This document shows positions 124-26,320 of a DNA stretch of 30,869 nucleotides, piece after piece. How positions within the stretch are numbered: the first letter of the stretch is position 1; each line of letters starts with the position of its first letter. Where the stretch lies: positions 1 to 30,869 of the IMG/VR virus record IMGVR_UViG_3300032293_000477; one strand, 5' to 3'. The notes beneath the pieces are model-generated. The model was not told the DNA's origin, did not search any database, and saw only the letters and a list, made by a program, of their open reading frames with translations. Both the position numbers and the translations under genes were made by a program. This DNA is from a virus.

Positions 124-1466
124 GATTTTGTTTCAGTATCCCATCTGTAAATCTTTTGGTTTGGTTGGAATACAACTGCGGTAATATCACCCTTGAACTC
201 GTTGCTTGAAAACATCACATTCATTTCGGTTGCCTTCTTCATTTCTCTTTCAGCCCAACCTAACGCAGCATCACCACCCCAACTATCATACATAAGTTTT
301 CCACAACCATCATCGTAAGATTTGGAACTTTCCAAATCTACTTTATGTCGGGATAAATAACTAAACATTCTTGTAATGGTTTCAAGGGATATGTTGTCGC
401 CTTTTGCCAGTTGGTTCGCTCTAATCTTACCAACTTCAGTCCCACAACTTCCCCAACCATTTTCTTCTACCCAATCTAAAACCCTTTGGGCTGTGTCTTG
501 GATTTCTTGTGTAGGAACAGCGAACGCTTCCCTAACATTAAATCGTTCTAAAACCTCACCAGTTCCTTCGTAATAGTCGTCCATTATATCAACGGGACAA
601 TACCCTTCCAATATACCTAACTTCACTTTAGAAATCGTCTTTGCTGTTGGTTCGGCAACCAAGGCTGCGAACCTTGATGGATAAACAAACAAACCCATAT
701 GGAAACCAATAGGTTTTAATTCGTCTTGAGCCGACATATTTGTTGGCATTCTGTTTAAGTATCTGGCTTCACTAATGAACGGACGACCAGACCCACCGAC
801 ATTTTGACCCTTACCCAAAGCCGCCTGTGCTTTAACAGGGATTTTCGCTAACGCCTGTTCGTAAGTTTCATTTATGCCTATAGGAAAATCAATTTGTTGC
901 CAGCGATGTCGGCATCGGTTGCCCGACTTGAAACTCCAGAAATCCACATTTGGTGCTGTCTTTGCTCTTGGAACTAACTTGAATGTATCAGGTTGTGCGG
1001 TTAGTTGTAATGAAAACGCCGCCATATCATCTTTAGACCATACCCTTTGAGCCAATAACATCTTTCTACATAGTTGTCTTGATGTTCTCATCAGGGGTGC
1101 TCCCACACCAGTATCTATCGTGTAGATGTATCTTGTAATAACAGATGCGTTATTACTATTGTCGTCCCAAATACTTTGTTTTCTTGGGTCAGGATTGATT
1201 GATGGAACAGCAAAGTTTTCCACAACCAATTCATCAATATCTTTTATTTCAGCGTTGAAGAATGCTTCATCGCTTACTTCCATTCCATAATTATCAATCA
1301 AAGCCAAGGCTTCATCAGTTAAATCGTCTTTATGCGAACAGGAAACTTCTTCCTGATTGTTGAAAACTTCCCAACTGATTTGTGTAGCAGGGTCTTTTAC
1401 AATACTAATGTATTGGATACCTGACATGTCATCTTCTTCGTCTATTTTTAACTCAAATATTTTCAT
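1..1466 (-). CDS. XkdF-like prohead protease, 5' part (runs off the left edge; continues at 30746)
   Basis: My own translation from ATG 1466 is open to base 1 and continues in frame at 30746 down to the stop at 30302, giving 636 residues. The start overlaps the tape-measure stop as TAATG. The N-terminus (MKIFELKIDEEDDMSGIQYI...SIVKDPA) matches the opening of prohead proteases of Bacteroidota phages. Around residues 170-200 is a CRHRW segment. Residues about 290-425 hold a domain with GTEVGKIRANQLAKG, a TRMFSYLSRH-like motif and DSWGGDAA, which recurs in phage morphogenesis proteins. From about residue 430 the XkdF-type serine protease domain begins and crosses the edge. Expected job: cleaving scaffold and capsid precursor during head maturation. 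Family assignment is from motif memory; the activity is inferred. Confidence 0.8.
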   Translation of the reverse strand, partial: MKIFELKIDEEDDMSGIQYISIVKDPATQISWEVFNNQEEVSCSHKDDLTDEALALIDNYGMEVSDEAFFNAEIKDIDELVVENFAVPSINPDPRKQSIWDDNSNNASVITRYIYTIDTGVGAPLMRTSRQLCRKMLLAQRVWSKDDMAAFSLQLTAQPDTFKLVPRAKTAPNVDFWSFKSGNRCRHRWQQIDFPIGINETYEQALAKIPVKAQAALGKGQNVGGSGRPFISEARYLNRMPTNMSAQDELKPIGFHMGLFVYPSRFAALVAEPTAKTISKVKLGILEGYCPVDIMDDYYEGTGEVLERFNVREAFAVPTQEIQDTAQRVLDWVEENGWGSCGTEVGKIRANQLAKGDNISLETITRMFSYLSRHKVDLESSKSYDDGCGKLMYDSWGGDAALGWAEREMKKATEMNVMFSSNEFKGDITAVVFQPNQKIYRWDTETKSPYYVFMSRDTIRKMLMKLSRLKPKNLINYEHSGMVFSGDD

Positions 1467-4400
1467 TATAGTCGTGCTAATTGTTCTATTTTTTTATTTA
1501 ATTTTGTTGTGTCCTGAATGTCGTTATACAGAACATAAGCCTTTAATGGTGTTTTTGTAGATAAGTTTTGTTTTGCGATTGCTTGAACTATTCTACTATC
1601 ATCAATAGACATCGGTTTTCCACCCGTTGCCGTATTGATTGAACTGATTTGGTCTCCGTAGGCTCTAACGGCTTCCCTGTTTAAGATGAACTCCCCACCT
1701 TCCAACATAGTTGGAACACCACCACCATAGGTGTCATGCGATGAACCTTCAACCAATCCACCCGTTCTACCGATGTAAGCCTTGTTCTGTGTGAATTGTA
1801 ATTGGTCGTTGATTACCCCAACTTGAAATGCTGTAAGTCCTGCCAACACCAACGAAAATGGTATTGCCGCAGGTATAGGTAATGTTGCGTATGCGTTGAT
1901 AATTGCCTGTGCTCCTTGTGCGATTGAATTGGCTAGAGCGAATTGTAATTCTTGGACTCTGGCTTTCTTTTCAACATCAAACCTTTTCTTTTGATATTCT
2001 TTTTCAACCTTCAATTTTTCAGCGTCTCTTATCTTTTGTCCTTCCACACTTTCATCACCCAATTCTTCAACCGCTTTAAGTGCTTGTGCTTGTTGGTAAT
2101 CTATCTGTTCCAACAACAAACTATTTTGTTGTTGGACTATATTTGATAATTGTGTTGATACCTGACTGAACGCCTGAAGAACTTTGTCCGCAACATCTTT
2201 AATATTACTAAAAGATTTGTTAAAACTTTCTTGAGTTTCTGTTGGTAATTCTTTTAGTTTCTTACTAATGGCGTTGAGTGTTTTTAAGAATGGGTTTTCA
2301 GTAAGTCCAAAATCTTTAGCGAACTCGTCCCCAAATAATTTTAAGAACTTTTGGATATTTTCAAGTTCCTCTCTCGTCTTGTTTTCAACATCTTTTAATC
2401 CTTCATCAATACCACTAAACAATGCCTTTATACCATCTTCACCTAATTTGTTGAAATACTTTTCTTCGTTGTCTAATACATCTGTGAATATCGTTAAATA
2501 ATCTTGAGCGTTTTGTTTGAAGTATTTTTTAAGACCTTCCGCCTGTTCGGGTGTAAATGTCTTATCAATTTCAGCACCTAATAATTTTATCTTACTAACA
2601 TTCTTATCACTCTCCTTATTGATTTCCTTTAACCCATTTACAAAGTCATCAGTTCTAATAACACCTGTTAAAATTGACTTTGCGATTTCTTGGTATTTAT
2701 TTCCCTCCTCTTCTAAAGCATCGTATCTGGCTTTAAATCCTTCAGCGGCTTTAGTATTACCTCTTTCTTCCGCCTGCATCTTATTATCTAATAATTCAGC
2801 CTGTTCTTTCGCAATTTTTATTATTTTATCTTGGATACCGAATTGTTGTTTAATAATGTATAAACTAGTATCTTCTAATTGTTTGTCGGTTAAACCTAAT
2901 TTTACTCTATCGGCACGAAGACCAGCAATTTTTTCTTCAACCTCTAACAAACCAAGTAATGTTTCGTTATCAGGTTTCCTATCAAACACTCCTAAAAACA
3001 AACCTTCAATACTATTTTTTACAGCAACAACCCTTTCGTCCAAATTGTTAAAGTATTCAACAAATGACTTTTTACTTTCATCACTAACATTCTTTAATGT
3101 TTCACCAATCGTTGGTATTGCTTTTTCAGCGACTTTAACAAATCCGTCCCAACCAGTGGTTGCTGTGAAACTCAAAGCACTATCCGTTTTTTTAATCTCT
3201 TCACGAATGTTGATAAATAATTGGGTATAACCATCACTCAATTTTTTTACATCACTTTCATTCGGTATTGTCTTGAATAAGTAATTGTTTAATTCATCAA
3301 GGAGTTTTTTACTTTCTGTTTTTAGAAACTCCGTTCTTTCTTTAATGTAATTTTCTTGATTAGTAATAATCTCTTTTTGATTATTTAATAAATCACTCGT
3401 ATATCTTATTTCCGCCTTTTGTGCTTCGTCAATTTTTTTAGCCAAACCATCTAACGCTTTAATCCTCGCAGTTATCACCAATAAGTTTTTATCAACGGCG
3501 TCTGTGGCAGTATCGGTTGCCTTTGCGGCATTCTCTTCCGCATTGGCTGTGTCTTTTAATGTCTTGTTTAGGGGTTTTAATTGAACTAAAGTATTCTCAA
3601 GTTGGGTGGTGTATTTTTGTTGAACCGCAGCCAAACCAGCCGTCTTTTCATTATACTTGTCGGCTATTCTTCCATACGCAATTTGGTCTGCGGTAAGGAA
3701 CCCGTTTGTTAAAGCCAGTGCTTTAGTCAATACACTAGGTCCGTTAGCACGAAGGTCAGCCAATGCTGTTTCTCTTTCTATTTCAGCCTCAAGTCGTGTT
3801 TCGTTTATTTTATTGATTGCTGCTCGTGCCTCTTCCGCCTGTATCTGTAGATTGATAAACTCTATACCTTGTTTGGTTAGTTGATTGTTTTCATCTATGA
3901 ATGCGTTTAATCCTGGATATGTTTTCTTCAATTCTTCTAATGTTTGTATCTCAAGTTCTCGGGTTGTGATACTATCAGTTAGAATTGTAATTTGTTGTTT
4001 GAGTTCAATTGCTGCTTTTCTTTTAACATCAATCAATCCACTCTCAACTTTTATTTGGTCTTTTATTGCTTGGGCGTTGGCTTCAGTCGCTTCTGTGTCT
4101 TCTTCTTGGGCTGTAATCAACAAATAAATCGCACCTGTTAGGGCTGCGATTGCTGTGATGAATAATACAACAGGGTTAGCATTTAGGACTGCGTTATAGG
4201 CGGCTTGGGCTATTGTTGCGGCTTTGGTGGCTGCCTCATTTATTTTAGTTGCCACAGACGCTCTTAAAGTAGCACTCTCAACTAATGCGGTGTTGATGGC
4301 GTTTATACCCAACGCAATATTCACTACATTCAGTGCCGCAGCCTCCGCTCTTTGGACTTCCTCTAAAGTTTGTTCGTTAGAAATAAACAAACTCAAAGCA

Positions 4401-4687
4401 CCTGAAGCAACCTGAAACGCACCAGTAACGACATTGATGGCATCACCTAAAGCACGGAACTTTTTTTCCGCTCCAATACCTTCACTAGCCTTATCAACTT
4501 CATCAAGTTTGGTTTTTAGTTTTGATATGTTGGAAATTGCTTCCTTATATGCTGGTGTCCCAAAATCTAATGTCTTTAAGGTATCTTGTAATATCTTTAA
4601 CTCACTTTCTAATTCGTTTAGATTACTGATTACCTTTTCTTCACCCTGACTGGTGATTTTTAATTTTAATGCGATTTCTTGTGCCAT
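1466..4687 (-). CDS. Tail tape measure protein
   Basis: The product has 1073 residues. It is mostly helical and coiled-coil-like, with alternating charged heptads. A hydrophobic stretch lies near residues 165-195 (NANPVVLFITAIAALTGAIY) and another near the C-terminus (a PIPAAIPFSLVLAGL segment). The C-terminal motif GGLVEGSSHDTYGGGVP followed by LEGGEFILNREA is typical of phage tape measures. The tape sets tail length; at about 1.5 angstrom per residue this predicts roughly 160 nm. It starts 3 nt after the preceding tail gene stops, and its TAA overlaps the ATG of the protease gene, so it belongs to the late tail operon. It does not sit next to the chaperone gene, as it usually would; six other genes come between. 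Confidence 0.93.
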   Translation of the reverse strand: MAQEIALKLKITSQGEEKVISNLNELESELKILQDTLKTLDFGTPAYKEAISNISKLKTKLDEVDKASEGIGAEKKFRALGDAINVVTGAFQVASGALSLFISNEQTLEEVQRAEAAALNVVNIALGINAINTALVESATLRASVATKINEAATKAATIAQAAYNAVLNANPVVLFITAIAALTGAIYLLITAQEEDTEATEANAQAIKDQIKVESGLIDVKRKAAIELKQQITILTDSITTRELEIQTLEELKKTYPGLNAFIDENNQLTKQGIEFINLQIQAEEARAAINKINETRLEAEIERETALADLRANGPSVLTKALALTNGFLTADQIAYGRIADKYNEKTAGLAAVQQKYTTQLENTLVQLKPLNKTLKDTANAEENAAKATDTATDAVDKNLLVITARIKALDGLAKKIDEAQKAEIRYTSDLLNNQKEIITNQENYIKERTEFLKTESKKLLDELNNYLFKTIPNESDVKKLSDGYTQLFINIREEIKKTDSALSFTATTGWDGFVKVAEKAIPTIGETLKNVSDESKKSFVEYFNNLDERVVAVKNSIEGLFLGVFDRKPDNETLLGLLEVEEKIAGLRADRVKLGLTDKQLEDTSLYIIKQQFGIQDKIIKIAKEQAELLDNKMQAEERGNTKAAEGFKARYDALEEEGNKYQEIAKSILTGVIRTDDFVNGLKEINKESDKNVSKIKLLGAEIDKTFTPEQAEGLKKYFKQNAQDYLTIFTDVLDNEEKYFNKLGEDGIKALFSGIDEGLKDVENKTREELENIQKFLKLFGDEFAKDFGLTENPFLKTLNAISKKLKELPTETQESFNKSFSNIKDVADKVLQAFSQVSTQLSNIVQQQNSLLLEQIDYQQAQALKAVEELGDESVEGQKIRDAEKLKVEKEYQKKRFDVEKKARVQELQFALANSIAQGAQAIINAYATLPIPAAIPFSLVLAGLTAFQVGVINDQLQFTQNKAYIGRTGGLVEGSSHDTYGGGVPTMLEGGEFILNREAVRAYGDQISSINTATGGKPMSIDDSRIVQAIAKQNLSTKTPLKAYVLYNDIQDTTKLNKKIEQLARL

Positions 4688-4690
4688 AGT

Positions 4691-7195
4691 TTAACAGGTT
4701 GTAAAGTTTGTTAGAATACCATATTCTATCACTTGATAAATAGTATTTAACCCCACTTGTTTTAGGAATGTCCCTTCAGCAATCGGTATTGTTGCCCCTG
4801 TATCACTAAATACAGAACAACCTGCCGATAAAGTAGAGCAGTTAGAATACACTACTATTTGTGAAGCACTTTCACTACACATCGTATTTATGTTGTTGGA
4901 ACTAAACATAACATATTGATATGTTGAACCAGTTGGGGTCGGTTGTGGTATGAATGGTGCCTGACGATATGTTGGTGGTATTAAAGGTAATTCCTGATTA
5001 TCAAAAGGTATTTTAATGAACGAACAAGAAACCAAACTAGTATCGGTTATGTCCGCATCGTTCATAGACAATAATCTCCACCAAGCATTTAAGAAATAAA
5101 CCTTATCATTATATCCCAAATCATTTATTTCAGTTGGGGTAAGTTTGAATATTCCGTTGAATATTTTAACACTACTATCGTAAAGTTGTTCTACCCTCCC
5201 AATCCAAAAGTTATGGTAGTTATCGTTTATCGTATAACCAACATAACTATTATTCATCGGTTGCCAGTAGTCATACTGATTTCCAAAGTTCAAATCACTA
5301 AAGGTTGATTGTGTATATTCGTAAGATGATAAGTGTGATATGGCGGGATATGTCGTGTGTGAAATTGCGGTTAAACCTGATAAGATATAGTAAGGAGTTG
5401 TTGTCCCTGTGATTTTACTATCTAATAATCCATTATAAAAACCTAATATAATCTCACTTCCTAATGGTGTGTATTGTGCTGTATCACCTGTAGCCCCAAA
5501 GTTCCAAGTATAGATGTGTGGAACTAAAATATTACTTTCTGTTTTTCCATCAAAGGTAGAAATTGGTAATGGTGGAAATGGACTTTCAATCGTCTTGGTT
5601 CCTGTATGATATGCTAGATTACTAATGTTTCTGTATGTCCCGAATTGTTGGTTTCTATCTTGTTGGTTGATTAAACTAAATCTGTCGGTGCTGTCTTTAT
5701 ATTTCAATACATATTCTTTGGTTAAAGAATTGGTTGGTTCAAGTGTGTAGTCCTGTGAAATATCTAATTTCTGGCTCCAATCTACTTCTCTTCCTGAATT
5801 GAAATAAGTGTCCCACCTTTCAATCAAAAGTGAGTTATCACCATTAGGTATCACCACTAGGTTAAAAGTATCTACAATCCCCTTAAAGAAGTCCAAACAG
5901 GTTGTTTCATCAGTTAGGTTGTCTTGTAATAATAATTCTTTATCACCAATCAATACAGGTGAAGACCAAAGTTCCCAAGCCTGATAGGTAAATCTAATTC
6001 TGGCGTTGGGGTCATAACCTTCGTTCTGTCTTGTGTAATAAAGTGCCACTCTTCTACCACCAGGTATTGTAGCATTTAGATACATATTTTTAACTTCTGT
6101 TCCCTGTGTAATAATCGCAATACCCCTAACTTGTGAATATAAAGTTCCGTTATCAACATCTTTAACCGCAATATCCAAGATACACGGAACAGATGTATTA
6201 TCAACTTGTGCGTTAAAACTAACCTTGAACTTATACAGACCAGCGACCGCAGTTGTAAAGAAGTTTCCCCTACCAGCGGCACCACCATTACGAGCGGGAC
6301 TAAAAATATTCAAGGGGTCATTTAGTTCATTTACAAAAACAAATCCCTTATAGAAATTAGGATAGAAGTTTCCATCGGCATCGTCCAATAAAACCCTCGT
6401 GTAATTCACACTAAAGATGTTGGCGTTTTTACTTGTTCCTGAAACAACTTGTCCCCCTTGTGATTGGTTTGTTTTGGCTAAACAGAATATCCCGTTGAAG
6501 TATTCGCTATTCAAGAAATTACTATCGTAAGTAAAACCCGCTTTTGAGAACATACTATCAATAAGATACTTGGCTGAAACCCAAGGCGCAAATTGTAAAG
6601 GGGATAGTGGAGCACCTGAAAAAGTGAAACCTGATGTGGTTAAATCAAATCTGGAGTAGTATTGTTCGTCATCATATCCGTAGAACCCTAATGGATAAAC
6701 GATTGAACCAGTAAGTCCTGTGTAGTTCGTGTAAGACCCACCTGTATAAGACCAAGTTGATACAATATTATCATAACTTAAAGTGTGGGTTAAACCTGAA
6801 TAATTCAAGTCGGTTAGTTTGATTTCCTGAAGTGTTAAAGCCAAGTCAGGTAAATTTTCTGTAAGGAAAATTTCATATGAACTACCTTGAACCGAATTGA
6901 TGATTTTGTTTAATCTACAAGAACCATTAAAGACATCTGCCCCACCATATTTTACAACAGCAGGGACTACAACATCATCACTAAAATTGGCACTATTCAC
7001 ATTATACGCTGCGGCGAAGAACCTGTTGTTCTTCGCTGTTTGTGGTATATTAAATGTCTTGGAATACGATGATGTCCTTGTTTGGAAATCTTCTATTTCC
7101 TGAAACGATTTGGTTATTGAAATGGATACATCTGCTCCTGTATCTAAACTTTCCCATACCCCCGTCTTGTTTGATTTTAACCATAGTTCAATCAT
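4691..7195 (-). CDS. Large tail-tip / baseplate hub-like protein
   Basis: The product has 834 residues. The first 120 (IELWLK...ITKSFQEIEDFQTRTSSYSK...FNIP...NNRFFAAAYNVNS) match a common family of tail proteins in Bacteroidota phages, found beside the tape measure and believed to form the tail tip or hub. The remainder is rich in aromatic residues, Gly and Thr, as expected of beta-structured virion proteins. A short Pro-rich linker (FIPQPTPTGSTYQYV) near residue 755 precedes a small Cys-containing C-terminal module (MCSESAS...YSNCSTLSAGCSVFSDTGA). One base separates it from the upstream gene (TAATATG). The structural role is well supported by position; the exact place in the tail is inferred. 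Confidence 0.75.
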   Translation of the reverse strand: MIELWLKSNKTGVWESLDTGADVSISITKSFQEIEDFQTRTSSYSKTFNIPQTAKNNRFFAAAYNVNSANFSDDVVVPAVVKYGGADVFNGSCRLNKIINSVQGSSYEIFLTENLPDLALTLQEIKLTDLNYSGLTHTLSYDNIVSTWSYTGGSYTNYTGLTGSIVYPLGFYGYDDEQYYSRFDLTTSGFTFSGAPLSPLQFAPWVSAKYLIDSMFSKAGFTYDSNFLNSEYFNGIFCLAKTNQSQGGQVVSGTSKNANIFSVNYTRVLLDDADGNFYPNFYKGFVFVNELNDPLNIFSPARNGGAAGRGNFFTTAVAGLYKFKVSFNAQVDNTSVPCILDIAVKDVDNGTLYSQVRGIAIITQGTEVKNMYLNATIPGGRRVALYYTRQNEGYDPNARIRFTYQAWELWSSPVLIGDKELLLQDNLTDETTCLDFFKGIVDTFNLVVIPNGDNSLLIERWDTYFNSGREVDWSQKLDISQDYTLEPTNSLTKEYVLKYKDSTDRFSLINQQDRNQQFGTYRNISNLAYHTGTKTIESPFPPLPISTFDGKTESNILVPHIYTWNFGATGDTAQYTPLGSEIILGFYNGLLDSKITGTTTPYYILSGLTAISHTTYPAISHLSSYEYTQSTFSDLNFGNQYDYWQPMNNSYVGYTINDNYHNFWIGRVEQLYDSSVKIFNGIFKLTPTEINDLGYNDKVYFLNAWWRLLSMNDADITDTSLVSCSFIKIPFDNQELPLIPPTYRQAPFIPQPTPTGSTYQYVMFSSNNINTMCSESASQIVVYSNCSTLSAGCSVFSDTGATIPIAEGTFLKQVGLNTIYQVIEYGILTNFTTC

Positions 7196-7196
7196 A

Positions 7197-9479
7197 TTAT
7201 TCGTGATTTTGTCTTATTGTATCGTAAGCCGATTTATATTCAATTTGGATTTGGTATTTTGATGAATTGATTTGGTAGTTCGGTTTGATGATTTCTGTAT
7301 TGGTTATTACCACAGGTTCTAATACCCCATTATCACCCACCAAATAAACTGAAGGTGATTGGACTAGTTCTTCACTCAACCATAAACTCTCCGCTTGTGG
7401 TAAGTAGTCAGTATAAAGAACCCCACTTGAACTTACAAGTTGGCTCCATACTGAACGCTCACTATTCCAACCAAAGTAAGACGATGTATCCCAACCCGCA
7501 GAATACAATTCAGGATTGGTTTGGACTACTTGTTTTTCAACTGAATAACCCACATCTTCACGAGCCCTGAAATTATAACTATCCCAAGCACCTAATTTAT
7601 TCAAGAAGAAGACAACCCTATTTCCTTGACTACAAACTTCATCGTAGTAGAAATAGAATGGCTCACTAATGATAGCCGTTGTTAAACAAGAACCAGTTGT
7701 AGTAAGGGGACAAGGGAACGATGATAGTGCCGATGCTTCAGTATCAAATACAAAAGGGTCTGTAAGTTGAATAAATCCACCACCACCAATTTCGGTAATT
7801 TCATAAATGGTATTTTCATAATTGATAAATTGACCCACAATGATTGTATCACCTGAATAACGGAAGAACATTACACCACCATCACACACATTTACACCCA
7901 CGATTGGTTGTCCTGTTGGGATACTTTCGGGAGTAGGTAATGGTGTTGGTGTAGGACAAGGAGGAATACTGATTGCTCCCAAGTCAGTTGAGTTCCATAG
8001 AATAGATGTAGGAAATGGATTGTTCGCTTCAATATACACATTTGTTGAAGGTGGCATGGAAATCGTAAGTTCGTTTCCACAACAACCCGTATAAGTAATA
8101 TTCAACACATATCCTACATTTGTGGATACTTCGTAAGTATGGCAATCTTGAACGAATGGTGTAGGACAATCCCCAACCAAACTAATAACCAAAGAACCTG
8201 TTATTCCACTAATAGTATTTTCACAACCACAAACTAATATTGTTGTATCCGCAGATACTGAACCTGTGAATGATGTTGCTCCCGAACAAGTAAGTCCTGT
8301 ATATTGGTAGGCATTATCAGGGTCGCTGTTTGATATTTGATATGTCTTACAAACACAATCATTACAAATACCAATATAAATTAAAAGTGCTTCATTACCA
8401 TCAAGAATAATGTTTGTGTTTTGACACGCACACCATCTACCAGTATCACCAGGATTGATTGAAATGGTTTGTAAATCACCAAGACAATCAAGGTATTCAA
8501 TAGAAGCAATCGCTTCAGCCAATGGTGGGTTTGAGTATTCATAATCACCACAACTACAACCATCAAAATTATCAATTTCAGGGGTCGGTGGTGTCGGTTG
8601 TTCTAGTGTCCCTTCCAATTCAACCTTATAGTATTTCGTAGTTGCTGGAATGTTTATTCCGTGTTCTTCAAGGTTAGGACTTCCTACCCCCAAATAAACT
8701 ACTTGTTGTTCCGTCCAATTTGTAGGAGTGTCCCAAAATCCATCGTAGTAAGAACAATTAGGTCTTGTTCCACATAGGCTTTCTACATTATAGGTTCTAC
8801 CTGTTGAAATTACAGCATCATTTTCATTATAGAATGTGAATAACCCTGAATAGATTTCACGAGCGGGTAATACCTCTGTAGTATCAAACCAATTCACAGC
8901 CGCTAGTAATGCGTAATCACCCTGACGAATGTATCGGGTTCTTGGGGAATTGGTTAAAAATCTTGATGTGTATTGTGGAAAAGTTCCTGTCTGTCCTGTT
9001 AAATAAAACGGGTCAAAGTCATAGGACTTTCCGTTGAACCATTCCTTCACACCATTTGTGGCATAACATACATCACTTCTTACAGCGGGGTTTCCAACAT
9101 TACCTTCACCATCATAAATGACTACCACACCTGTTGGTGTGGTTGAGTATTCTTCACCTACGATGATGTCGTAGATAATCATATTGTTTCTCAAATAACC
9201 CCACGCCGCTCCTTGAATTGCTGTATCACCCGAACACCCTATATTTACGGGTTTAGATGATGTGTAGTTCAATAGAATTGGGGAAAGGTCTATCTGTCCC
9301 CACCCTTGACTTGATGGTGTAATCTTGAGTTCGGCAATCAGTCCTTCTTGTGTATAAACATTTACAACATATCTGTATTTGTATAATGACGGGTCAGTCG
9401 CTGCTGTTGATATAAATTGATATACCAAATTGCCATATACTGGCTGTATTGTTTCTGGTTGTGATAAAAATGTAATCAT
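7197..9479 (-). CDS. Tail protein with Cys-rich central insertion
   Basis: The product has 760 residues. The N-terminal part (about 1-300) and the C-terminal part (about 600-760, with VVFFLNKLGAWDSYNFRARE and SLWLSEELVQSPSVYLVG) resemble the two halves of a tail protein seen beside the hub protein in Bacteroidota phages. Between them lies a variable region of roughly 300 residues with many Cys pairs (CSCGDYEY, CACQN, CNDCVCKTYQIS, CGCENT, CCGNE) and a short PTPTPLPTPE linker. This looks like a string of small surface modules added to a conserved frame. It starts by TAATG overlap with the upstream gene. Likely at the tail tip and perhaps in contact with the host surface; the binding role is inferred. 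Confidence 0.7.
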   Translation of the reverse strand: MITFLSQPETIQPVYGNLVYQFISTAATDPSLYKYRYVVNVYTQEGLIAELKITPSSQGWGQIDLSPILLNYTSSKPVNIGCSGDTAIQGAAWGYLRNNMIIYDIIVGEEYSTTPTGVVVIYDGEGNVGNPAVRSDVCYATNGVKEWFNGKSYDFDPFYLTGQTGTFPQYTSRFLTNSPRTRYIRQGDYALLAAVNWFDTTEVLPAREIYSGLFTFYNENDAVISTGRTYNVESLCGTRPNCSYYDGFWDTPTNWTEQQVVYLGVGSPNLEEHGINIPATTKYYKVELEGTLEQPTPPTPEIDNFDGCSCGDYEYSNPPLAEAIASIEYLDCLGDLQTISINPGDTGRWCACQNTNIILDGNEALLIYIGICNDCVCKTYQISNSDPDNAYQYTGLTCSGATSFTGSVSADTTILVCGCENTISGITGSLVISLVGDCPTPFVQDCHTYEVSTNVGYVLNITYTGCCGNELTISMPPSTNVYIEANNPFPTSILWNSTDLGAISIPPCPTPTPLPTPESIPTGQPIVGVNVCDGGVMFFRYSGDTIIVGQFINYENTIYEITEIGGGGFIQLTDPFVFDTEASALSSFPCPLTTTGSCLTTAIISEPFYFYYDEVCSQGNRVVFFLNKLGAWDSYNFRAREDVGYSVEKQVVQTNPELYSAGWDTSSYFGWNSERSVWSQLVSSSGVLYTDYLPQAESLWLSEELVQSPSVYLVGDNGVLEPVVITNTEIIKPNYQINSSKYQIQIEYKSAYDTIRQNHE

Positions 9480-10048
9480 TATGATAATGCTAAATTGTAT
9501 TGTTGTGTTCCAAATAAGTTTATTCTATCAAATATGTCTCCCAACACCAATTCTTGATATTGTGGTTGTGATAATAAACCTTCAACATACTTACCAGTTT
9601 CAGTTTGGAACTCATCAGTAAATATTCTGTATCCCTTGTATCCCGCCTTAAATAAGTTCTTTCTAACAGCGAATGCCATACCTTTTGCTTTGGCTCCTTG
9701 AAGACCTATCTTGGCTTTTACCCATTTTTCTAATTCAGTAATAAGTTGTGATGTGCCACCCTTACTACCTTTGGGTCTTTTATCAGGATAATATGCTCCA
9801 CCACCAGGAAAAGACCCTTCACCAAATACAAAATCAACCCCATAATCTTCCATTAGAATATCTATCTCCCCTTCCCTAATAATATAAGATACTGAATTGT
9901 ATAATCTACCCGTAGCACTAAAATTATATGGACTACTTCGTTTAGTCATTTCACCCCTTTTAGTGTATCTTGGTTTAGGTGTTTTAATAAGTTCTTTTAC
10001 TTGTTTAACCAAGTATTCACCAATAAGATTTAACAATTCTTCTTCCAT
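9479..10048 (-). CDS. Tail-completion / neck protein (HK97 gp10-like)
   Basis: The product has 189 residues. It is basic at the N-terminus and contains the pattern LYNSVSYIIREGEIDILMED...VDFVFGEGSFPGGG followed by ITELEKWVKAKIG and GMAFAVRKNLFKAGYKGYRI. That order (small-molecule-like beta segment, FVxxG loop, a helix ending in KW, then AFAVRKxxFKxG) is what I associate with gp10-type head-tail joining or tail-completion proteins. Both ends are coupled to neighbours by TAATG overlaps. It sits within the tail block and not beside the connector and portal. The assignment is by pattern only; it could be another minor structural protein. Confidence 0.6.
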   Translation of the reverse strand: MEEELLNLIGEYLVKQVKELIKTPKPRYTKRGEMTKRSSPYNFSATGRLYNSVSYIIREGEIDILMEDYGVDFVFGEGSFPGGGAYYPDKRPKGSKGGTSQLITELEKWVKAKIGLQGAKAKGMAFAVRKNLFKAGYKGYRIFTDEFQTETGKYVEGLLSQPQYQELVLGDIFDRINLFGTQQYNLALS

Positions 10049-10243: not shown

Positions 10244-12427
10244 TTATCCTACTATAGTCCAACCCTTACCTGTTGCGATTGCTCTTTCTGCGGGGGTCAG
10301 TAATGCTGCTCCAACATTAGCCGTTATGTCTATTGTCTTTGCTGTTATTGTTGGTAAGTCATTAAATACCTGAACCAACGCAGCCTGACCTAAACTATTG
10401 AACTTTATATCAATCTGTGGTGATGTTCCTGCGTATTGTCCCGCACCATTATTTCGTAATCGTAGTGATGATAGTGGAGACCTGGCGTTGGTGTTATATC
10501 CTGTGGCAACAAACTTGGAGAACTTTGTGTATAAGTCAAAACTTGCGGTTTGGTTAAACTTGGCGAAATTAGTTCCATCTACATAAATCGTTGATGCTGT
10601 TGAGGTATTACCCAACTTATCTGCGTTCGTTATTCCTGTTAAACTAATCGCACTATCCACCATACCATTTACAGATGTAAGTGAGGTCATCTGTGTATTA
10701 GGTAATGTTAAACTAACCAATGAATAACAACTTGTAAATGCTGCTTGGAATGTTGTAATAGCGGCCGTGGCGGTGGCAGGTAAAACACAAGACCTCAAAT
10801 TAAAGCAGTTTGTAAAAGCATTACCCCAGTTAGAACAACCAGTCATAGATGTTGGTAATGTAATTTGTTGTAGTTGAGAACACCCGTTAAATGAAGCGTT
10901 CATACTTGTAATTGAGTTAGCAATTGACGGCATTGTTAAACCTGTTAAATTAGAACAATTATTAAAAGCACTTCCAAAAAGTTGAGTTGAGGTCATATTT
11001 GTTGGCATAACAACCTCTTCTAACGACACACAACCACTACACATATTTACGAAACTTGTTGGACCATTAGTTGGTAATGAAATCCTTTTAAGACCAACAC
11101 AATTTGTGAATGTTGAATTAAAAGAAGTCGGGTTCCAACTTGGCGGAATTACAATTTCACTCAAACCAGAACAAGCATTAAATGTGGATGCCATATCAAT
11201 ACTCGCACCTATTGTCGTTGGTAATGTTATTTTTGCTAATTGAAAACAACCAGTAAAACAACTAGCCATATTTGTTAAACTTGGTATTGATGTTGGTAAT
11301 GTTATTACACCTAATGAAGGACAAGTTCCAAAAGTATTATTTAAGGAAGTAGTATTAAAATTGATTGGAAATGATGTAAAACTCTTTAATGAGGGACAAG
11401 AAGCGAATGTAGAAGTCATAGTCATAGTAGCCCCTGATGTAATTGATGGTGGTAATTTAACATCTTCTAATGACGAACAACCATTAAATGCCGAAGCCAT
11501 ATTGATAGTTGTAATCGCTGAACTCCAACTTTTTATTTCCACATTTAACAACATACGACAATTTGAAAAGATTTGTTGAAAATTAGTTGCGGAGTTTGTT
11601 TGGGGTAATTGTATTGAACCTAATGAGGAACTATTAAAGAAAGCAAAACCAAAATCACTACAACTATTCATAGTTGGTGGAAAAACAACATTTACTAACA
11701 TAGGACAAGTGGTCGCCATACTATTTGCGGTTGTAATATTTATCATATCCTGTGGTAATATGATTTCTTCAATAGAATTACAACCACTTATCAATCCTAA
11801 AATTGATGTTGCGTTTGGTGCTGATATTGGCATTACAATTTTTCTCAAGGCGGGACACTGATAATAAGTAAATTCAAACATAGTCGTCGCACTCGTCATA
11901 ACTGATGGTAATTTAGAATATTCCAAGTTATTAAATCTTGGAGTATTCGTTGTATCTATGTAATGTAAATAACTCGCAGTTTCTATTGTCCCATCACCAT
12001 AATACTCTTCCAATAATCCTGCTGAACCTCTTAAGGTTGATAACACATAATAAGTTGGACGAACAAATAATGCCTCGGTAATCTGTGCTCCCGCATCTAC
12101 ATAAACCCTTACCTTCCAAGTTTCATATCCTCTACTACAAGGTGTTCCTGTTCCTCCTGTATAAGTGTGATTTGTTGTCGTTGATGTAGATGTTGTAATT
12201 GTATCTATAATCCCATCACCCCAATCAATATACAGATTTTGAGTTGATGGTTTTACAAATGCGGTTCTTAACGCATAAATTGGAAATACAACACTACTAA
12301 CTAAAAATTGAACTTCACCTGGTGTATCCGTTATTGAAATCCAATCGGCAGGTCTAACCCAAGTTGAACCTGAATATGTCGGTTTCGCAATTGCGAATGA
12401 TGTTTGATTTGGTAATTGAAATGGCAT
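10244..12427 (-). CDS. BspA-like leucine-rich-repeat tail/adhesion protein
   Basis: The product has 727 residues. Near residues 85-100 is a YIDWGDGIIDTI strand with a following HTYT, the opening usual in BspA-like surface proteins. From about residue 150 to 600 there are at least fifteen imperfect repeats of about 24 residues built on F..C..L..I.LP (for example AFNGCSSLEDVKLPPSI, TFNACSGLSEIVIPPSW, AFNNCSNLTGLTMPSI). This is the LRR_5/BspA pattern with a Cys at a fixed place in most units. Bacterial BspA proteins bind extracellular matrix and other cells. Here, in a tail operon, the protein is best read as a host-recognition fibre or tip adhesin. It starts 3 nt after the collagen-like gene. 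Confidence 0.8.
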   Translation of the reverse strand: MPFQLPNQTSFAIAKPTYSGSTWVRPADWISITDTPGEVQFLVSSVVFPIYALRTAFVKPSTQNLYIDWGDGIIDTITTSTSTTTNHTYTGGTGTPCSRGYETWKVRVYVDAGAQITEALFVRPTYYVLSTLRGSAGLLEEYYGDGTIETASYLHYIDTTNTPRFNNLEYSKLPSVMTSATTMFEFTYYQCPALRKIVMPISAPNATSILGLISGCNSIEEIILPQDMINITTANSMATTCPMLVNVVFPPTMNSCSDFGFAFFNSSSLGSIQLPQTNSATNFQQIFSNCRMLLNVEIKSWSSAITTINMASAFNGCSSLEDVKLPPSITSGATMTMTSTFASCPSLKSFTSFPINFNTTSLNNTFGTCPSLGVITLPTSIPSLTNMASCFTGCFQLAKITLPTTIGASIDMASTFNACSGLSEIVIPPSWNPTSFNSTFTNCVGLKRISLPTNGPTSFVNMCSGCVSLEEVVMPTNMTSTQLFGSAFNNCSNLTGLTMPSIANSITSMNASFNGCSQLQQITLPTSMTGCSNWGNAFTNCFNLRSCVLPATATAAITTFQAAFTSCYSLVSLTLPNTQMTSLTSVNGMVDSAISLTGITNADKLGNTSTASTIYVDGTNFAKFNQTASFDLYTKFSKFVATGYNTNARSPLSSLRLRNNGAGQYAGTSPQIDIKFNSLGQAALVQVFNDLPTITAKTIDITANVGAALLTPAERAIATGKGWTIVG

Positions 12428-12430
12428 ATC

Positions 12431-14458
12431 TTATGGTGTTGTTGTGAATATGTATATGTCCCCTGTGATGTTTGATGTTGGGGCGTATTGAGCGTAAAAT
12501 GTTGATGTTCCTGAACCTACGGCATTATAGGCTTGGACTCTGGCAACCTGTGCTGGATATGCTGTGTTATTATACGGAACAAAATCCACCCTTGAAGAAG
12601 AAGTGATTGCCGAATAAGAATAAACATAATCGTAGAAAGTTGTTCCGGTATTGTAAGTCCAACCTGAAAACGATAGTGTTTGATTTAAGACACGGATAGG
12701 TTGTGAGCCTGATGAACCACTAGAACCTGATGTTCCAGACGAACCTGAAGTTCCATTTATACCTGATGTTCCGCTCGTTCCATTTATACCACTACTTCCA
12801 CTTGTTCCTGAACTACCCGATGTTCCGCTACTTCCTGATGAACCTGTGCCACCTGAAGTCCCTGACGAACCTGATGTTCCACTACTTCCTGAAGTTCCTG
12901 AACTACCAGTCGCTCCAAGTGTTGCTAATATGATTTTATGATTGTTGGGGAATTGCGCTGTTCCCGCAGCACTAACCAAAGATACAGGAACTTCCCAATA
13001 GTTAGATGCTCCTACGATTTGTGTTGTCGCACCTGTTATAGTCCATACCTGATAATTTCCACTATTAGATTGGTCTTGAATTGTAATCTGTTGTCCTACT
13101 TGTAATAAAGCCAAGAATATATCTATGTCTGTTATTGGTGTGTCTGTAAGATGGTTGATGTTGATTTGGGTTGATGCGGTCATCGTAATATTATTCCAAA
13201 GAATATGTCCCGCACCAGGATTACCTGATTGTGAGTTGTCCTTTGCTTCATAATAAAATACACTTGACGATACACCATTTATTCCTGATGTTCCGCTACT
13301 ACCACTAGTCCCCGATGTTCCTGAACTACCAGAAGTCCCTGAAACCCCACTTGAACCTGATGTGCCTGAACTACCACTTGTTCCCGAACTACCCGATGTT
13401 CCACTAACACCACTTGAACCTGATGTGCCTGAACTTCCTGTCGCTCCGTCAGTTCCACTACTACCTGAAGTTCCTGAACTACCTGATGTCCCACTTGAAC
13501 CTGATGAACCTGTCCCACCACTTGTTCCCGAACTTCCGCTCGTTCCTGATGTGCCACTACTTCCTGACGAACCACTAGTCCCTGAACTACCTGATGTTCC
13601 GTTGGTTCCTGAAATCCCACTTGAACCTGATGTGCCTGAACTTCCACTGGTTCCTGAACTACCTGATGTTCCGTTGGTTCCTGAAACCCCACTTGAACCT
13701 GATGTGCCTGAACTACCTGATGTGCCTGAAACTCCACTTGAACCTGATGTTCCGTTCTGTCCTGATGTTCCACTACTACCTGATGTTCCGCTCGTGCCTG
13801 AATTACCCTTGAGGTCATTCACATTTATTCTATAAGTGATTGTATTACCTGAATTGTTAAACACTACCCAACCACCAGTATAGTCCCCTGTAAAGATTGG
13901 TAATTGACCTATGGTTTCATTAGGACAAGCAGGGGAAGCATAATTCACCACTTCACAATCTTCACTAGTCATAATGTTTCCGTTTTCGTATAACAAGAAA
14001 CCATTTTGTAATACGAAGTCAGGGATACATGCTGTCTGTTCTACTCTTATTGTAATGGTCGCTTCAACCCCACAAACATCTTCCTTGAACCTATCCATAA
14101 AGGGTGTGTAATTTACACTTGTAGTCAGGAAGTATCCGTATTGAGTAAGTTGGTTTGTGAAGAATGCGTAGAAGTCATTTAGGATAGTTTCGGTCAAAGC
14201 CAAACTATCCAACTGATTTGAATTGATGGGGTCTCCATCTATGTATTCATTCAACAAGTCATAGATTAAAATGTTGAAGTTGAAATCGGCAAAGTTCTTA
14301 TCCACTACTGATGGTTGTGGAACTGCGTGGAACGCAGGGTATAATGTAATATAATCTTCCCTTGAATAGTCAGCCAAGTTTCCCCAACTAAAAGTTCGTA
14401 GTATTGGGTGTTGTGCTGTAAAATAACCGAATAGTTGTATGATGTCTTTAATAGTCAT
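12431..14458 (-). CDS. Tail-terminator-like domain fused to collagen-like shaft
   Basis: The product has 675 residues. Residues 1-150 (MTIKDIIQLFGYFTAQHPIL...TFSWGNLADYSRED...LYDLLNEY...TPFMDRFKEDVCGVEATITI) resemble a small stand-alone protein common in Bacteroidota phages and likely to act in the tail terminator or completion. After a short domain come two Gly-X-Y blocks (about residues 216-392 and 515-583) made mainly of GTS, GSS and GVS triplets, split by a folded domain (about 393-514) and followed by a roughly 90-residue C-terminal domain. Collagen-like blocks form trimeric shafts in phage fibres. The start overlaps the -1-frame stop of the chaperone gene as TAATG. Confidence 0.75.
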   Translation of the reverse strand: MTIKDIIQLFGYFTAQHPILRTFSWGNLADYSREDYITLYPAFHAVPQPSVVDKNFADFNFNILIYDLLNEYIDGDPINSNQLDSLALTETILNDFYAFFTNQLTQYGYFLTTSVNYTPFMDRFKEDVCGVEATITIRVEQTACIPDFVLQNGFLLYENGNIMTSEDCEVVNYASPACPNETIGQLPIFTGDYTGGWVVFNNSGNTITYRINVNDLKGNSGTSGTSGSSGTSGQNGTSGSSGVSGTSGSSGTSGSSGVSGTNGTSGSSGTSGSSGTSGSSGISGTNGTSGSSGTSGSSGSSGTSGTSGSSGTSGGTGSSGSSGTSGSSGTSGSSGTDGATGSSGTSGSSGVSGTSGSSGTSGSSGTSGSSGVSGTSGSSGTSGTSGSSGTSGINGVSSSVFYYEAKDNSQSGNPGAGHILWNNITMTASTQININHLTDTPITDIDIFLALLQVGQQITIQDQSNSGNYQVWTITGATTQIVGASNYWEVPVSLVSAAGTAQFPNNHKIILATLGATGSSGTSGSSGTSGSSGTSGGTGSSGSSGTSGSSGTSGSSGINGTSGTSGINGTSGSSGTSGSSGSSGSQPIRVLNQTLSFSGWTYNTGTTFYDYVYSYSAITSSSRVDFVPYNNTAYPAQVARVQAYNAVGSGTSTFYAQYAPTSNITGDIYIFTTTP
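12712..12912 (-). repeat. Shorter collagen-coding DNA repeat block
   Basis: Short repeats built on 9-nt (three-codon) units encode a second Gly-X-Y block (GSSGTSGSSGTSG and similar). The codons vary more than the protein, so the repetition is stronger at residue level. It probably exchanges units with the larger block at 13279-13815. Confidence 0.8.
13279..13815 (-). repeat. Main collagen-coding DNA repeat block
   Basis: About 530 bp of degenerate 9- and 18-nt repeats encode roughly 176 residues of Gly-X-Y triplets. Several longer stretches recur nearly exactly (for example ccacttgaacctgatgtgcc at several places), the mark of recent unit duplication or slippage. The repeats keep the frame and create long shadow frames on both strands. 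Confidence 0.85.
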
Positions 14459-15233
14459 TATTGTATGGATTTTTGGTTTCTTTGGTTTTCTTTATGTGCC
14501 TTGTCTAACCTATAAGATAAATACCCCATCACCTCATATAGTTCAAGTTTCAACACAGGATTTACCTTCAGTATATCGTCTTGAGCGCACAACATTAGTG
14601 ATTGATAATAGAAGTCAATTACGGATTGTTGGACTTCTTTTGGCGTAATATCTTTGGACTTACTTTGTTTTTTACTTTGCTCTCGGTCATTTTCGTCTCC
14701 ATAGATGATAGGGAAACTTTCATAAGTTCTTGAACGAAAGTTGTTAAAAAAAAAAGGGCTGAAAACAAGTTTGTAATTGGGAACTGCTTAAAGTGATTTA
14801 CACGACCCATACATTCGTCCAATGAATATGGGATAAGTTCCCTGTCTTCCCCAATCTTATCGTTGGATAGTGGTTTGTATAAATGGGTTGCCATCTTGGT
14901 TAAATCCAAAGGACTTTCAGCCATAAACACTTCCAAGTTTATCCATTCTTCATAACTGATTTGTGATGGTTTAATCAATCCATATTTCTTACCCTTGAAA
15001 TCAACAACAAGGTTTAACGGAGTTGCGTCTGTGTTAGACCATTCACTCATCAACATCTTTGATACAAATGATACTTGTGCGAATGGTGCTTGTTTGATTT
15101 CTTCAATCGGTGCTCCCGTCATCATAGTAATCAATTCCGTTGGTTTAATCTCGGGGTTGTCTTTCAGTAATTCATACTGCTCTATCGTGATGGGTAATAA
15201 CCCATATTCTTTTTTACCTAATACTACTTTCAT
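14458..15233 (-). CDS. Tail assembly chaperone, -1 frameshift fusion (lambda GT-like)
   Basis: After the T10 run at 14746-14755 the -1 frame is open from AAC at 14745 to a TAA at 14458-14460. It encodes 95 residues (NNFRSRTYESFPIIYGDEND...VIDFYYQSLMLCAQDDIL...LYEVMGYLSYRLDKAHKEN). The stop forms TAATG with the next gene, exactly the junction used elsewhere in this operon. Together with the first 163 residues of the zero frame this makes a 258-residue fusion. In lambda and many siphophages a small fraction of ribosomes slips to make such a GT protein, which recruits the tape measure and tail tube subunits. A sequencing error of one T in the run would produce a single unshifted gene instead; this cannot be excluded by reading alone. 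Confidence 0.75.
14619..15233 (-). CDS. Tail assembly chaperone, unshifted form (lambda G-like)
   Basis: The product has 204 residues. The opening VLGKKEYGLLPITIEQYELLKD, the middle FKGKKYGLIKPSQISYEEWINLEVF and the helix NLFSALFFLTTFVQEL follow a known pattern of tail chaperone-like proteins. The gene contains a slippery run in the FFL codons; the last 41 residues after the run look poor (Lys/Ser-rich), as expected for the tail of the unshifted product. It lies two genes downstream of the large terminase and overlaps the preceding 54-codon gene by 20 nt. The function is inferred from sequence pattern and the frameshift signature. Confidence 0.75.
   Translation of the reverse strand: MKVVLGKKEYGLLPITIEQYELLKDNPEIKPTELITMMTGAPIEEIKQAPFAQVSFVSKMLMSEWSNTDATPLNLVVDFKGKKYGLIKPSQISYEEWINLEVFMAESPLDLTKMATHLYKPLSNDKIGEDRELIPYSLDECMGRVNHFKQFPITNLFSALFFLTTFVQELMKVSLSSMETKMTESKVKNKVSPKILRQKKSNNP
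14715..14756 (-). promoter_or_regulatory. Programmed -1 frameshift site (U UUU UUA) with possible hairpin
   Basis: In the minus strand the zero-frame codons read CTT TTT TTT TTA, which contains the heptamer T TTT TTA in the correct phase for -1 slippage (the same heptamer as HIV-1 gag-pol). Two bases later, AACTTTC (14742-14736) can pair with GAAAGTT (14721-14715), with an inner GTT/AAC pairing. The spacing is shorter than usual for a stimulatory hairpin, so the hairpin is tentative. The heptamer is clear. Confidence 0.75.
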
Positions 15234-15378
15234 AATGTTCTATCAATATACCTATCATTTTACCGAAGGGTAGTTTATGTTGTTTGGATACTTTTTCTAA
15301 TGCTCTGTGGTATTCACCTTTAATGACTATCGCTTTGTAATCATAATTATAGTTCTTCCCGTTTCGTTTTAATTTCAT
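15214..15378 (-). CDS. Small ribbon-helix-helix-like protein (54 aa)
   Basis: This frame opens 2 nt after the large terminase stop (TAATTATG) and ends inside the chaperone gene with 20 nt of overlap. The product is MKLKRNGKNYNYDYKAIVIK then GEYHRALEKVSKQHKLPFGK and MIGILIEHYESSIR. A Lys/Arg-rich arm, a beta strand (YKAIVIKGEY), a first helix (HRALEKVSKQ), a turn (KLPFGK) and a second helix (MIGILIEHYES) are the layout of Arc/CopG DNA-binding proteins. Tight coupling on both sides argues that it is real. It may regulate late transcription or act with the terminase; the role is inferred. Confidence 0.7.
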   Translation of the reverse strand: MKLKRNGKNYNYDYKAIVIKGEYHRALEKVSKQHKLPFGKMIGILIEHYESSIR

Positions 15379-15380
15379 AA

Positions 15381-16556
15381 TTACATAAAACTATATTTCA
15401 CTTTTGGTTTATGGGTCATCTCTGTAATCAAGTATCTACTAGCATCTAATAAGTGGTCTCTACCTGTTGTCTTACTTGTGATGTTTCCTGACCTGTCCTT
15501 GAACCATTTGTAGTTCTTTAATTCTTCTATCAGGTTGGTTGATGATGCGTCAATCTGTAGTTTGTATTTTTTCATTTCGGTTATACCATACAGGACTGAA
15601 CCTGCTTCCTTCTTTACCCCACGAGATTTGGAATATCCACCCTTCTTTAACTCGTCAATCATACGGGGCTCACTACTATCACAGATGACCTCAAAGGTTT
15701 TCTGTAGTCCCCCTTCTTTCATCTTGAATAATATATCATCACTAGACAATCCCTTTTCATAGAATACTTCCTTCAGGTAGATTACATTATCAGGTTCGTT
15801 TATAAGTCCCCATACACACGCACACTCGTCATTACTATAACCCCAGTCAATTCCAACACCTAACATCTTGGAATATCTTGGTGCTTCTTTAACCACCTCC
15901 CAATTTATAAAGATGGTCTCTCTTGGTTTAATCTTCTTACCCAACGCATACACCTCATACATTTCGTAATCTATGGTTTTTAGGTTTTCAATAGATTTTA
16001 CAATCCTTTCATCAAGGAAAGGATTTTGTAAGTAGGTTGAAATGATTAGTTGGTTTTCAGGTCTTTCTTCCAATTCATAGACATACCAATCTTCACTAGC
16101 CGATGGGTTGTAATCTGCGATGATGAACCCACTAGTCCTGATGTCTAACTGAAGGAACGCTTCATAACTTACTGATGTAATTTCGTTGATGAATACTATG
16201 TCTTGTTTCATACCACGAAGTTTGGCTGAACCATCATCTGCTCCCAAGAACCTAACCATACCACCATTATCAAAACGATACACCACTTCACTCTTGTTGA
16301 ACTGCTCGGGGTTATACATTCCCATTTGGTTCATCACTTCCTGAAAGTCCAATAGAACGGAATTACGGATTGATACAAGTGTGTCCCTTACTATCGTGAT
16401 TGTTGTGTTAGGGTTCTGTAGAACATACAAAATCAAGTAGGATATGGTTTGATATGTCTTACCACTTCTTGATGAACCACGAAGGAATATATGTCTTTTA
16501 CCTTCCTTGACTGCCTTGTCTATATCCAAGTATAATGTTGATACTTTAACTTCCAT
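15381..16556 (-). CDS. terL: Terminase large subunit
   Basis: The product has 391 residues. The ATPase half shows Walker A GSSRSGKT (27-34) and Walker B DIVFINEIT with the catalytic Glu (119-127). The nuclease half shows GIDWGYSND (Asp 237), ICDSSEP (Asp 293) and DHLLDASRY (Asp 367, Asp 371), the RNase H-like acidic set of terminases of the PBSX/Terminase_3 type. It packages DNA into the prohead through the portal, powered by ATP. Its start lies about 65 nt after a terminator that closes the early block, so it is the first gene of the late transcription unit. The small subunit is 3 kb away in the early block, an unusual split. Confidence 0.95.
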   Translation of the reverse strand: MEVKVSTLYLDIDKAVKEGKRHIFLRGSSRSGKTYQTISYLILYVLQNPNTTITIVRDTLVSIRNSVLLDFQEVMNQMGMYNPEQFNKSEVVYRFDNGGMVRFLGADDGSAKLRGMKQDIVFINEITSVSYEAFLQLDIRTSGFIIADYNPSASEDWYVYELEERPENQLIISTYLQNPFLDERIVKSIENLKTIDYEMYEVYALGKKIKPRETIFINWEVVKEAPRYSKMLGVGIDWGYSNDECACVWGLINEPDNVIYLKEVFYEKGLSSDDILFKMKEGGLQKTFEVICDSSEPRMIDELKKGGYSKSRGVKKEAGSVLYGITEMKKYKLQIDASSTNLIEELKNYKWFKDRSGNITSKTTGRDHLLDASRYLITEMTHKPKVKYSFM

Positions 16557-25161: not shown

Positions 25162-26304
25162 TTATGATGGCGTTATTGTCGGTGTTGGCGTCGGTGTTGG
25201 CGTCGGTGTCGCTGTAGGACAACTTATAGGATATGATAAATTATAATAATTTACTAATGGGAACGCACCAAAACCATATCGTCCTGTTATTGGGTAATAA
25301 ACACTACCATCATATAAATTACCTGTATTTACAAATTGAGGTCCAAATGCGGCAACAACACCACCTTCATACAAATACCCACCACTCGTAATATATTGTA
25401 TCCAACCATTATTTGTAGTATTACTGAAAACTCGTGCGAACATATATGATGCCCCTCCTGATTGAAAACCAAACGCAGCGTAATTATTTCCATCAGGTGC
25501 CACACCAAAAACAAAAGTATCAGGGTTGGGTGCTGTTTGGATATAACCTGATGTAAATGTTTGTGTTGGAGCAACAGATAATCTACTATATGTTCCTGTA
25601 AAACCTGGTTGGGCTGGACTACCAATTATGTCTAATTGTTGAGGACATAAAGGATTTGGAGTATTACTTGGTGTTTGTGTTGGGGTCGGTGTAGGTGATG
25701 ATGTGTTCGTAGGGGTAATTGAAGGGGTCGGTGTAGGTGATGATGTATTTGTTGGGGTAATTGAAGGGGTCGGTGTAGGTGATGCCGTGTTTGATGGGGT
25801 AATTGAAGGGGTCGGTGTAGGTGATGCCGTGTTTGATGGAGTAGGTGTTATACCATTACCATTCTTATAGTAGATTTTATTAGGCTCAAAGTTCGCAGTA
25901 TTACCTGTATAGAAGTCGTTATTTGTATCAACAAATACAAACGCCAAACTATTTAACAACTTCGCACTTGAAGGGTTATATGATGTTGAACCTGATGGCA
26001 TTTCATACACACCCAACCAATACTGGTTTTCATTTTCTAACCAAATATTACAAGGTGTTCCCCCTGTATAGTTAAAGTTCTGTGGAAGGTTCTTGAATGT
26101 ATCAAAACTAAAAACATCATATCTGTTGGCATACATAGATGGATAAGTAGATGTCGCATTTTCAGGGTAGAAACTTACAATGTTTCTACCTTGAGAGTTC
26201 TGTAATCTCCACAAGTATCTTGGATTGGCACCAAAGTCCCCCGTCTTGTATTGGGATACATTTACGAAGATGTTGTTAGTTGCGTTTTGTTCTATGTATA
26301 TCAT
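25162..26304 (-). CDS. Virion surface protein with PT-rich repeats
   Basis: ATG 26304 is preferred to an upstream in-frame start at 26376, because it gives the usual N-terminus ([20 protein letters not shown]) of a structural protein family seen in Bacteroidota phages; 380 residues. Residues about 1-160 form this domain. A 14-residue repeat ([14 protein letters not shown] type) then runs about five times, followed by a domain ([20 protein letters not shown]...[14 protein letters not shown]) and a second PT linker ([18 protein letters not shown]) that ends directly at the stop TAATAA. A protein ending in its linker suggests that a C-terminal domain has been lost or exchanged. Likely an exposed head or tail protein. 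Confidence 0.7.
25657..25853 (-). repeat. 42-bp tandem repeat encoding PT-rich linker
   Basis: About five near-identical 42-bp units encode [14 protein letters not shown]-like segments. Several units share ggggtaattgaaggggtcgg on the plus strand. High identity marks a recent expansion. Confidence 0.85.
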
Positions 26305-26320
26305 ATTTTTAATTCTAAAG

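Follow-up and report, generated by a model that had tools for sequence, protein, structure and literature searches.

A likely recoded tail assembly chaperone with a conserved run of nine to eleven T behind the terminase of Bacteroidota phages

A short product made together with a -1 fusion from the same gene is a hallmark of tail chaperones. Lambda needs its two products, gpG and gpGT, at about 30:1; the tape measure protein is bound by the part common to both, the tail tube protein by the extension (PMC5009743). In two HK97-like chaperone genes the measured shift is 6-7% (PMC3711429). Lambda G/GT and HK97 gp13 with its -1 fusion have extensions of about 100 residues, lie in the tail block between the major tail protein and the tape measure gene, and shift at G GGA AAG. 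The E/E+E' pair of P2 (Phage_TAC_7, phrog_166) shifts to -1 on a U run (TTTTTTG); E is a 91-aa protein encoded directly before the tape measure gene. Across phage sets, the mean distance from slip site to stop is 26 and 36 nt (PMC10885494). Bacterial polymerases can themselves slip on A or T runs of at least 9 (PMC5009743), and genes that use transcriptional slippage, such as dnaX, carry such a homopolymer at the shift point and do not need an RNA stimulator.

The gene compared here with these systems lies on the minus strand of IMG/VR record IMGVR_UViG_3300032293_000477, of which a stretch of 30,869 nt, hereafter the window, was analysed. The features at the slip site and immediately upstream are:

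15381..16556, minus strand: terminase large subunit, the upstream anchor of the block
15214..15378, minus strand: small ORF of 54 aa between the terminase and the putative chaperone gene, retained in several relatives
14619..15233, minus strand: zero-frame ORF encoding the short, G-like product of 204 aa (ATG at 15233, stop at 14619)
14746..14755, minus strand: T10 slip site, near codon 160 of the zero-frame ORF
14458..14745, minus strand: T-like -1 frame extension of 95 codons (14745-14461), stop at 14460-14458

On the minus strand the T10 context reads GCC CTT TTT TTT TTA ACA ACT in the zero frame, and the -1 frame continues with AAC AAC TTT. Two heptamers are in frame: T_TTT_TTT (14754-14748), which lies inside T10 and is common to the entire family, and T_TTT_TTA (14751-14745), which is present in the window and most of its closer relatives. 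The predicted fusion of zero frame and extension is 258 aa long. About 41 zero-frame codons follow the slip site, differing in length and sequence between relatives, a tail that is long for this class against the means of 26 and 36 nt (PMC10885494). The first-pass annotation had described a -1 frame open for 95 residues after T10, whose stop codon and the next gene's ATG share bases in TAATG at 14458, a junction also found at 1466, 9479 and 10048; all of these coordinates are correct. The open frame is also exceptional within the window. The 37 window genes tested contain 23 in-frame XXXYYYZ heptamers (Y = A or T). Behind those of the putative chaperone gene the -1 frame stays open for 98, 97 and 71 codons, against at most 17 behind any other; the median is 5. 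T10 is the longest A/T run anywhere in the window. An A_AAA_AAC at 14673 was considered as the shift site and rejected: its A6 run is not common to the relatives, and selection on the -1 frame begins earlier.

The zero frame and the extension were searched separately, and both searches returned relatives from IMG/VR only. None was found in bacterial genome contigs, and neither half of the window gene gave a pairwise match among named phages. After removal of duplicates these relatives (subfamily 1) comprise 49 distinct junctions, all with a run of T9-T11 (mostly T10, with two T11 and three T9), and in 48 of them the two halves stand in a -1 relation. The sole exception, L225, combines T9 with a +1 relation; since its relative L216 has T10, this is likely a homopolymer length error or a true indel. 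Contigs carrying one half only end within or beside the other half. The codons across the run vary (CTT TTT TTT TTA, CTT TTT TTT TTC, GTT TTT TTT TTT C, GCT TTT TTT TTT and GCT TTT TTT TTC), and despite this variation an in-frame T_TTT_TTT is present in every junction.

A tail protein common to the window and Nonlabens phage P12024L provided a route to the P12024L genome. Its gp40 lies directly after the terminase and has a T9 run at the position equivalent to the window slip site; no other T run of 9 occurs between 22.7 and 33.1 kb, the part scanned. The last part of gp40's -1 frame is gp41, for which an ATG inside this frame had been annotated as the start. A search with gp40 yielded subfamily 2, which comprises 63 contigs including P12024L (45 distinct junctions), with T9 in 62 and T10 in one; the -1 extension measures 82-94 codons in all 59 contigs that reach its stop. 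Profile comparison of the two subfamilies gave E 1.1e-15 for the zero frame and E 2.1e-9 for the extension, and on these profiles both halves are homologous. Furthermore, a fold search independent of the profile route placed a P12024S protein among its matches (E 2.8e-8). The two Nonlabens phages, P12024L and P12024S, both cultured on the host Persicivirga, resemble the window in having a T run (here T9) at the equivalent place, a -1 extension, a position behind the terminase and homology in both halves; they differ in that gp40 and gp41 are on record as two separate hypothetical proteins, which PHROGs places in two unknown families. The first-pass annotation had expected plain ORF calling to leave the extension as a gap, which holds for the window (160 bp between the zero-frame stop and the next gene) but not for P12024L, where the end of the extension was annotated as gp41. 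Judging by the terminase relatives and P12024L, the host of the window phage would belong to the Bacteroidota.

Further from these two subfamilies, Flavobacterium phage 6H (L097:10047-10927, reverse strand) is a weak fold match (E 1.6e-3). It has a 191-aa ORF and, behind it, a gap of 305 bp that holds an extension-like open stretch in another frame; the frames are difficult to read at this locus. In phages of gut Bacteroides/Parabacteroides whose terminase is related, something else occupies the same place:

L099:1180-1770 and L100:15146-15733: unrelated single ORF of about 195 aa beside the related terminase, without a T run

This ORF is possibly a non-frameshifted counterpart.

Every locus that reaches the slip site, in either subfamily, has a T run. 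The codon before the Phe codons ends in T without exception, and both Phe codons of the run are kept as TTT, although Phe is encoded by TTC in about 37% of cases in subfamily 1 and in 52% in subfamily 2. The first-pass annotation had named two observations that would overturn the arrangement, namely an eleventh T, which would make one plain gene, and homologues lacking a slippery run. Neither is borne out by the independent contigs, 48 of whose 49 junctions still need a -1 shift at T9-T11. Because it is kept across about a hundred related virus fragments and a cultured marine phage, the recoding arrangement is, on comparative grounds, real.

Selection across the run was followed through the mean pairwise difference at each codon position among 11 close relatives of equal length. 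Before the run, zero-frame codon positions 1, 2 and 3 differ by.120,.061 and.287; after the zero-frame stop, the -1 codon positions give.103,.028 and.256. Within the overlap the -1 positions give.090,.072 and.173, with no rise at the third position of the zero frame itself (.090). Among these 11 relatives the T run is invariant. The frame under selection thus switches from 0 to -1 at the T run; the extension is conserved and under selection, and the earlier impression that it is a real protein is right. A strong case of dual coding comes from one subfamily 2 group (L262:3474-3758 and sister loci), in which the overlap, about 250 nt read in two frames, hardly varies in either, suggesting a role for both C-termini in that group.

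How would the two products be made? Most translation would end in the 204-aa zero-frame product, and a minority would slip back one base on U10 and read 95 more codons, giving the 258-aa fusion that ends at the start of the next tail gene. By analogy with lambda gpG/gpGT, the shared N-terminal part would coat the tape measure protein and the extension would recruit the tail tube protein. The first-pass description of the site as an HIV-type U UUU UUA does not hold for the family. The heptamer occurs in the window but is missing from L033, L056, L066, L069 and all of subfamily 2, and no conserved downstream RNA stem was found (mean z near control, no consensus fold). Alignment of homologues, which that annotation had proposed as a check, shows T_TTT_TTT just upstream kept in all and T_TTT_TTA not kept. 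On this evidence, what never varies is a stretch of at least 9 U that contains U_UUU_UUU in frame.

Such a feature without conserved structure leaves transcriptional slippage as a serious alternative, in which RNA polymerase makes the transcript of T9-T11 one U too long (or two too short) and normal translation then yields the same fusion. Runs never fall below 9 in either subfamily, the length on which bacterial polymerases slip (PMC5009743), so that, as in dnaX-type genes, whose proteins are unrelated to this family, at least 9 A or T stand at the shift point in both. The length of the T run is constant while its register varies, and neither a conserved RNA structure nor a conserved Shine-Dalgarno-like element that could stimulate ribosomes was found at the slip site. 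On the other hand, a run of at least 9 always includes an in-frame U_UUU_UUU, most of the additional T's follow from the flanking amino acids, the tail chaperones described in PMC5009743, PMC3711429 and PMC10885494 shift on the ribosome, and P2 E has only T6 before its G. I therefore lean, by a modest degree, towards ribosomal -1 frameshifting, because the known tail-chaperone cases are ribosomal and the in-frame heptamer is always present, and regard polymerase slippage on the same run as the less probable but substantial option; both could contribute.

Downstream of the extension lies a block of putative tail genes, and a candidate partner of the extension lies elsewhere in the window:

12431..14458, minus strand: next gene, made up of a conserved tail-block protein (N-terminal ~175 aa) and, for the rest, collagen-like repeats
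10244-12427: insertion in the tail block encoding a 727-aa protein with BspA-like repeats, present in L088 and missing from most relatives read
9479..10048, minus strand: conserved tail-block protein of 189 aa (best PHROG lead 'tail completion or Neck1', at E 0.2 only)
7197..9479, minus strand: conserved tail-block protein of 760 aa, from synteny
4691..7195, minus strand: conserved tail-block protein of 834 aa that Nonlabens phages P12024L/S match locally
1466..4687, minus strand: tape measure candidate of 1073 aa
28074..28655, minus strand: putative major tail protein of 193 aa (phrog_19091, as P12024L gp03 and gp09), assumed partner of the extension

Read in 15 relatives, the order begins with the terminase, in many cases a small gene, and the putative chaperone gene; a protein of about 150-175 aa, the 189-aa protein and two long proteins follow, and the tape measure candidate ends the block where a relative's locus extends that far. 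The six genes that the first-pass annotation counted before the tape measure are there in the window, but two reflect accessory material (the collagen-like fusion and the BspA-like gene), and L055 and L071 have four. In both of these the N-terminal part of the 12431..14458 product is a stand-alone protein. By this comparison the collagen-like repeats and the BspA-like gene are additions to the block; the tail protein seems to have gained a stalk, and the BspA-like protein is a possible receptor-binding part. P12024L has two phrog_19091 paralogues, gp03 and gp09 (L096:2149-2694, 5953-6552), possibly twin tail tube proteins. Two overlapping ORFs at 25162-27787 of the window carry long Thr/Pro/Ser-rich repeats (TPTPSITPT type).

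As a whole, the explanation that I consider probable is that a slip on the U10 tract gives two products forming a tail chaperone pair of the gpG/gpGT kind. By analogy the gene is most likely a recoded tail assembly chaperone of Bacteroidota phages, with a G protein and a GT-like fusion that would work like the lambda pair. At the level of sequence it shares with lambda and HK97 the short product plus -1 fusion from one gene, the extension of about 100 residues and the setting in a tail block. The slip site lies near the end of the first frame, as in frameshift tail chaperones generally, and is conserved among homologues (T9-T11 in 49/49 junctions and 63/63 contigs of the two subfamilies). The lambda G/GT arrangement proposed at first is therefore retained as a two-product layout and as the best functional reading, but neither kinship nor place agrees with it: the window gene follows the large terminase at four to six genes from the tape measure, the family slips on U9-U11 and not on G GGA AAG, and the search for kinship did not raise lambda G or HK97 gp13 above the other proteins of the two phages.

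Direct sequence matches to lambda G, HK97 gp13, P2 E or Mu gp41 were not found, nor was a significant named family match for either half. The best Pfam lead, Phage_TAC_7 (E 0.018, 15.5 bits against a curated cut-off of 25), and the best named PHROG for subfamily 2, phrog_166 (4/12 members, best E 0.0049), both below accepted cut-offs, concern the N-terminal parts, and together the two libraries point weakly to the P2 gpE type. P2 gpE itself matches phrog_166 at 4e-7 but gives no direct match to the family profile, and the window's zero-frame product is about twice as long as E. The zero frame and extension were folded separately. The zero-frame model is fairly confident (mean pLDDT 82.5); it has no fold match in the PDB, where sequence matches were not convincing either, and among viral models it matched nearly all unnamed proteins, with one weak match named tail assembly chaperone (E 0.054). 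Several unnamed proteins of 240-260 aa recur in the fold matches of both halves, a weak hint that the halves may sit on one chain in other phages. Because the lambda G/GT comparison failed on place and on sequence, this is an unrecognised family within a known kind of system, the frameshift tail chaperones.

One point against a chaperone is that the gene does not adjoin the tape measure gene. It adjoins the terminase in all relatives whose neighbourhood was read, and this position and the lack of a significant named family would also suit a recoded protein of another kind, such as a head-tail connector or a packaging-linked factor. I consider such a protein unlikely, since the downstream block terminates in a tape measure candidate, the existing leads are to tail-chaperone families, and a short product with a -1 fusion is typical of tail chaperones. 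Far less probable is an extension that is a separate, translationally coupled gene with its own start and no fusion: it would agree with the annotation of gp41 from an internal ATG, but the extension frame of the window has no ORF of at least 50 aa starting with ATG, GTG or TTG, the first Met of the extension falls within its conserved region, and selection on -1 starts at the T run, which a separate gene would not need to conserve. Finally, long homopolymers are error-prone and L225 has one odd length, but a missing T in the window or a decaying gene with a relic second half is hardly credible when the extension is under selection and the -1 relation recurs in 48 of 49 distinct junctions and throughout a remote subfamily including cultured P12024L; the homologues rule out a base-call error.

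There is a smaller but substantial chance that, in this widespread and unrecognised chaperone family of Bacteroidota phages, the ratio of short to long product is set by RNA polymerase slipping on the strictly kept T9-T11 and not by ribosomal frameshifting. Because the run is so strict and has no RNA stimulator, the two mechanisms can be told apart by direct test, and the cultured P12024L and P12024S have been described. The analysis gives a likely function to genes listed as unknown in PHROGs, and would add a tail-chaperone family located away from the tape measure gene. It also offers a rule for spotting such genes in Bacteroidota phages: after the large terminase, nine or more consecutive T with the -1 frame open.
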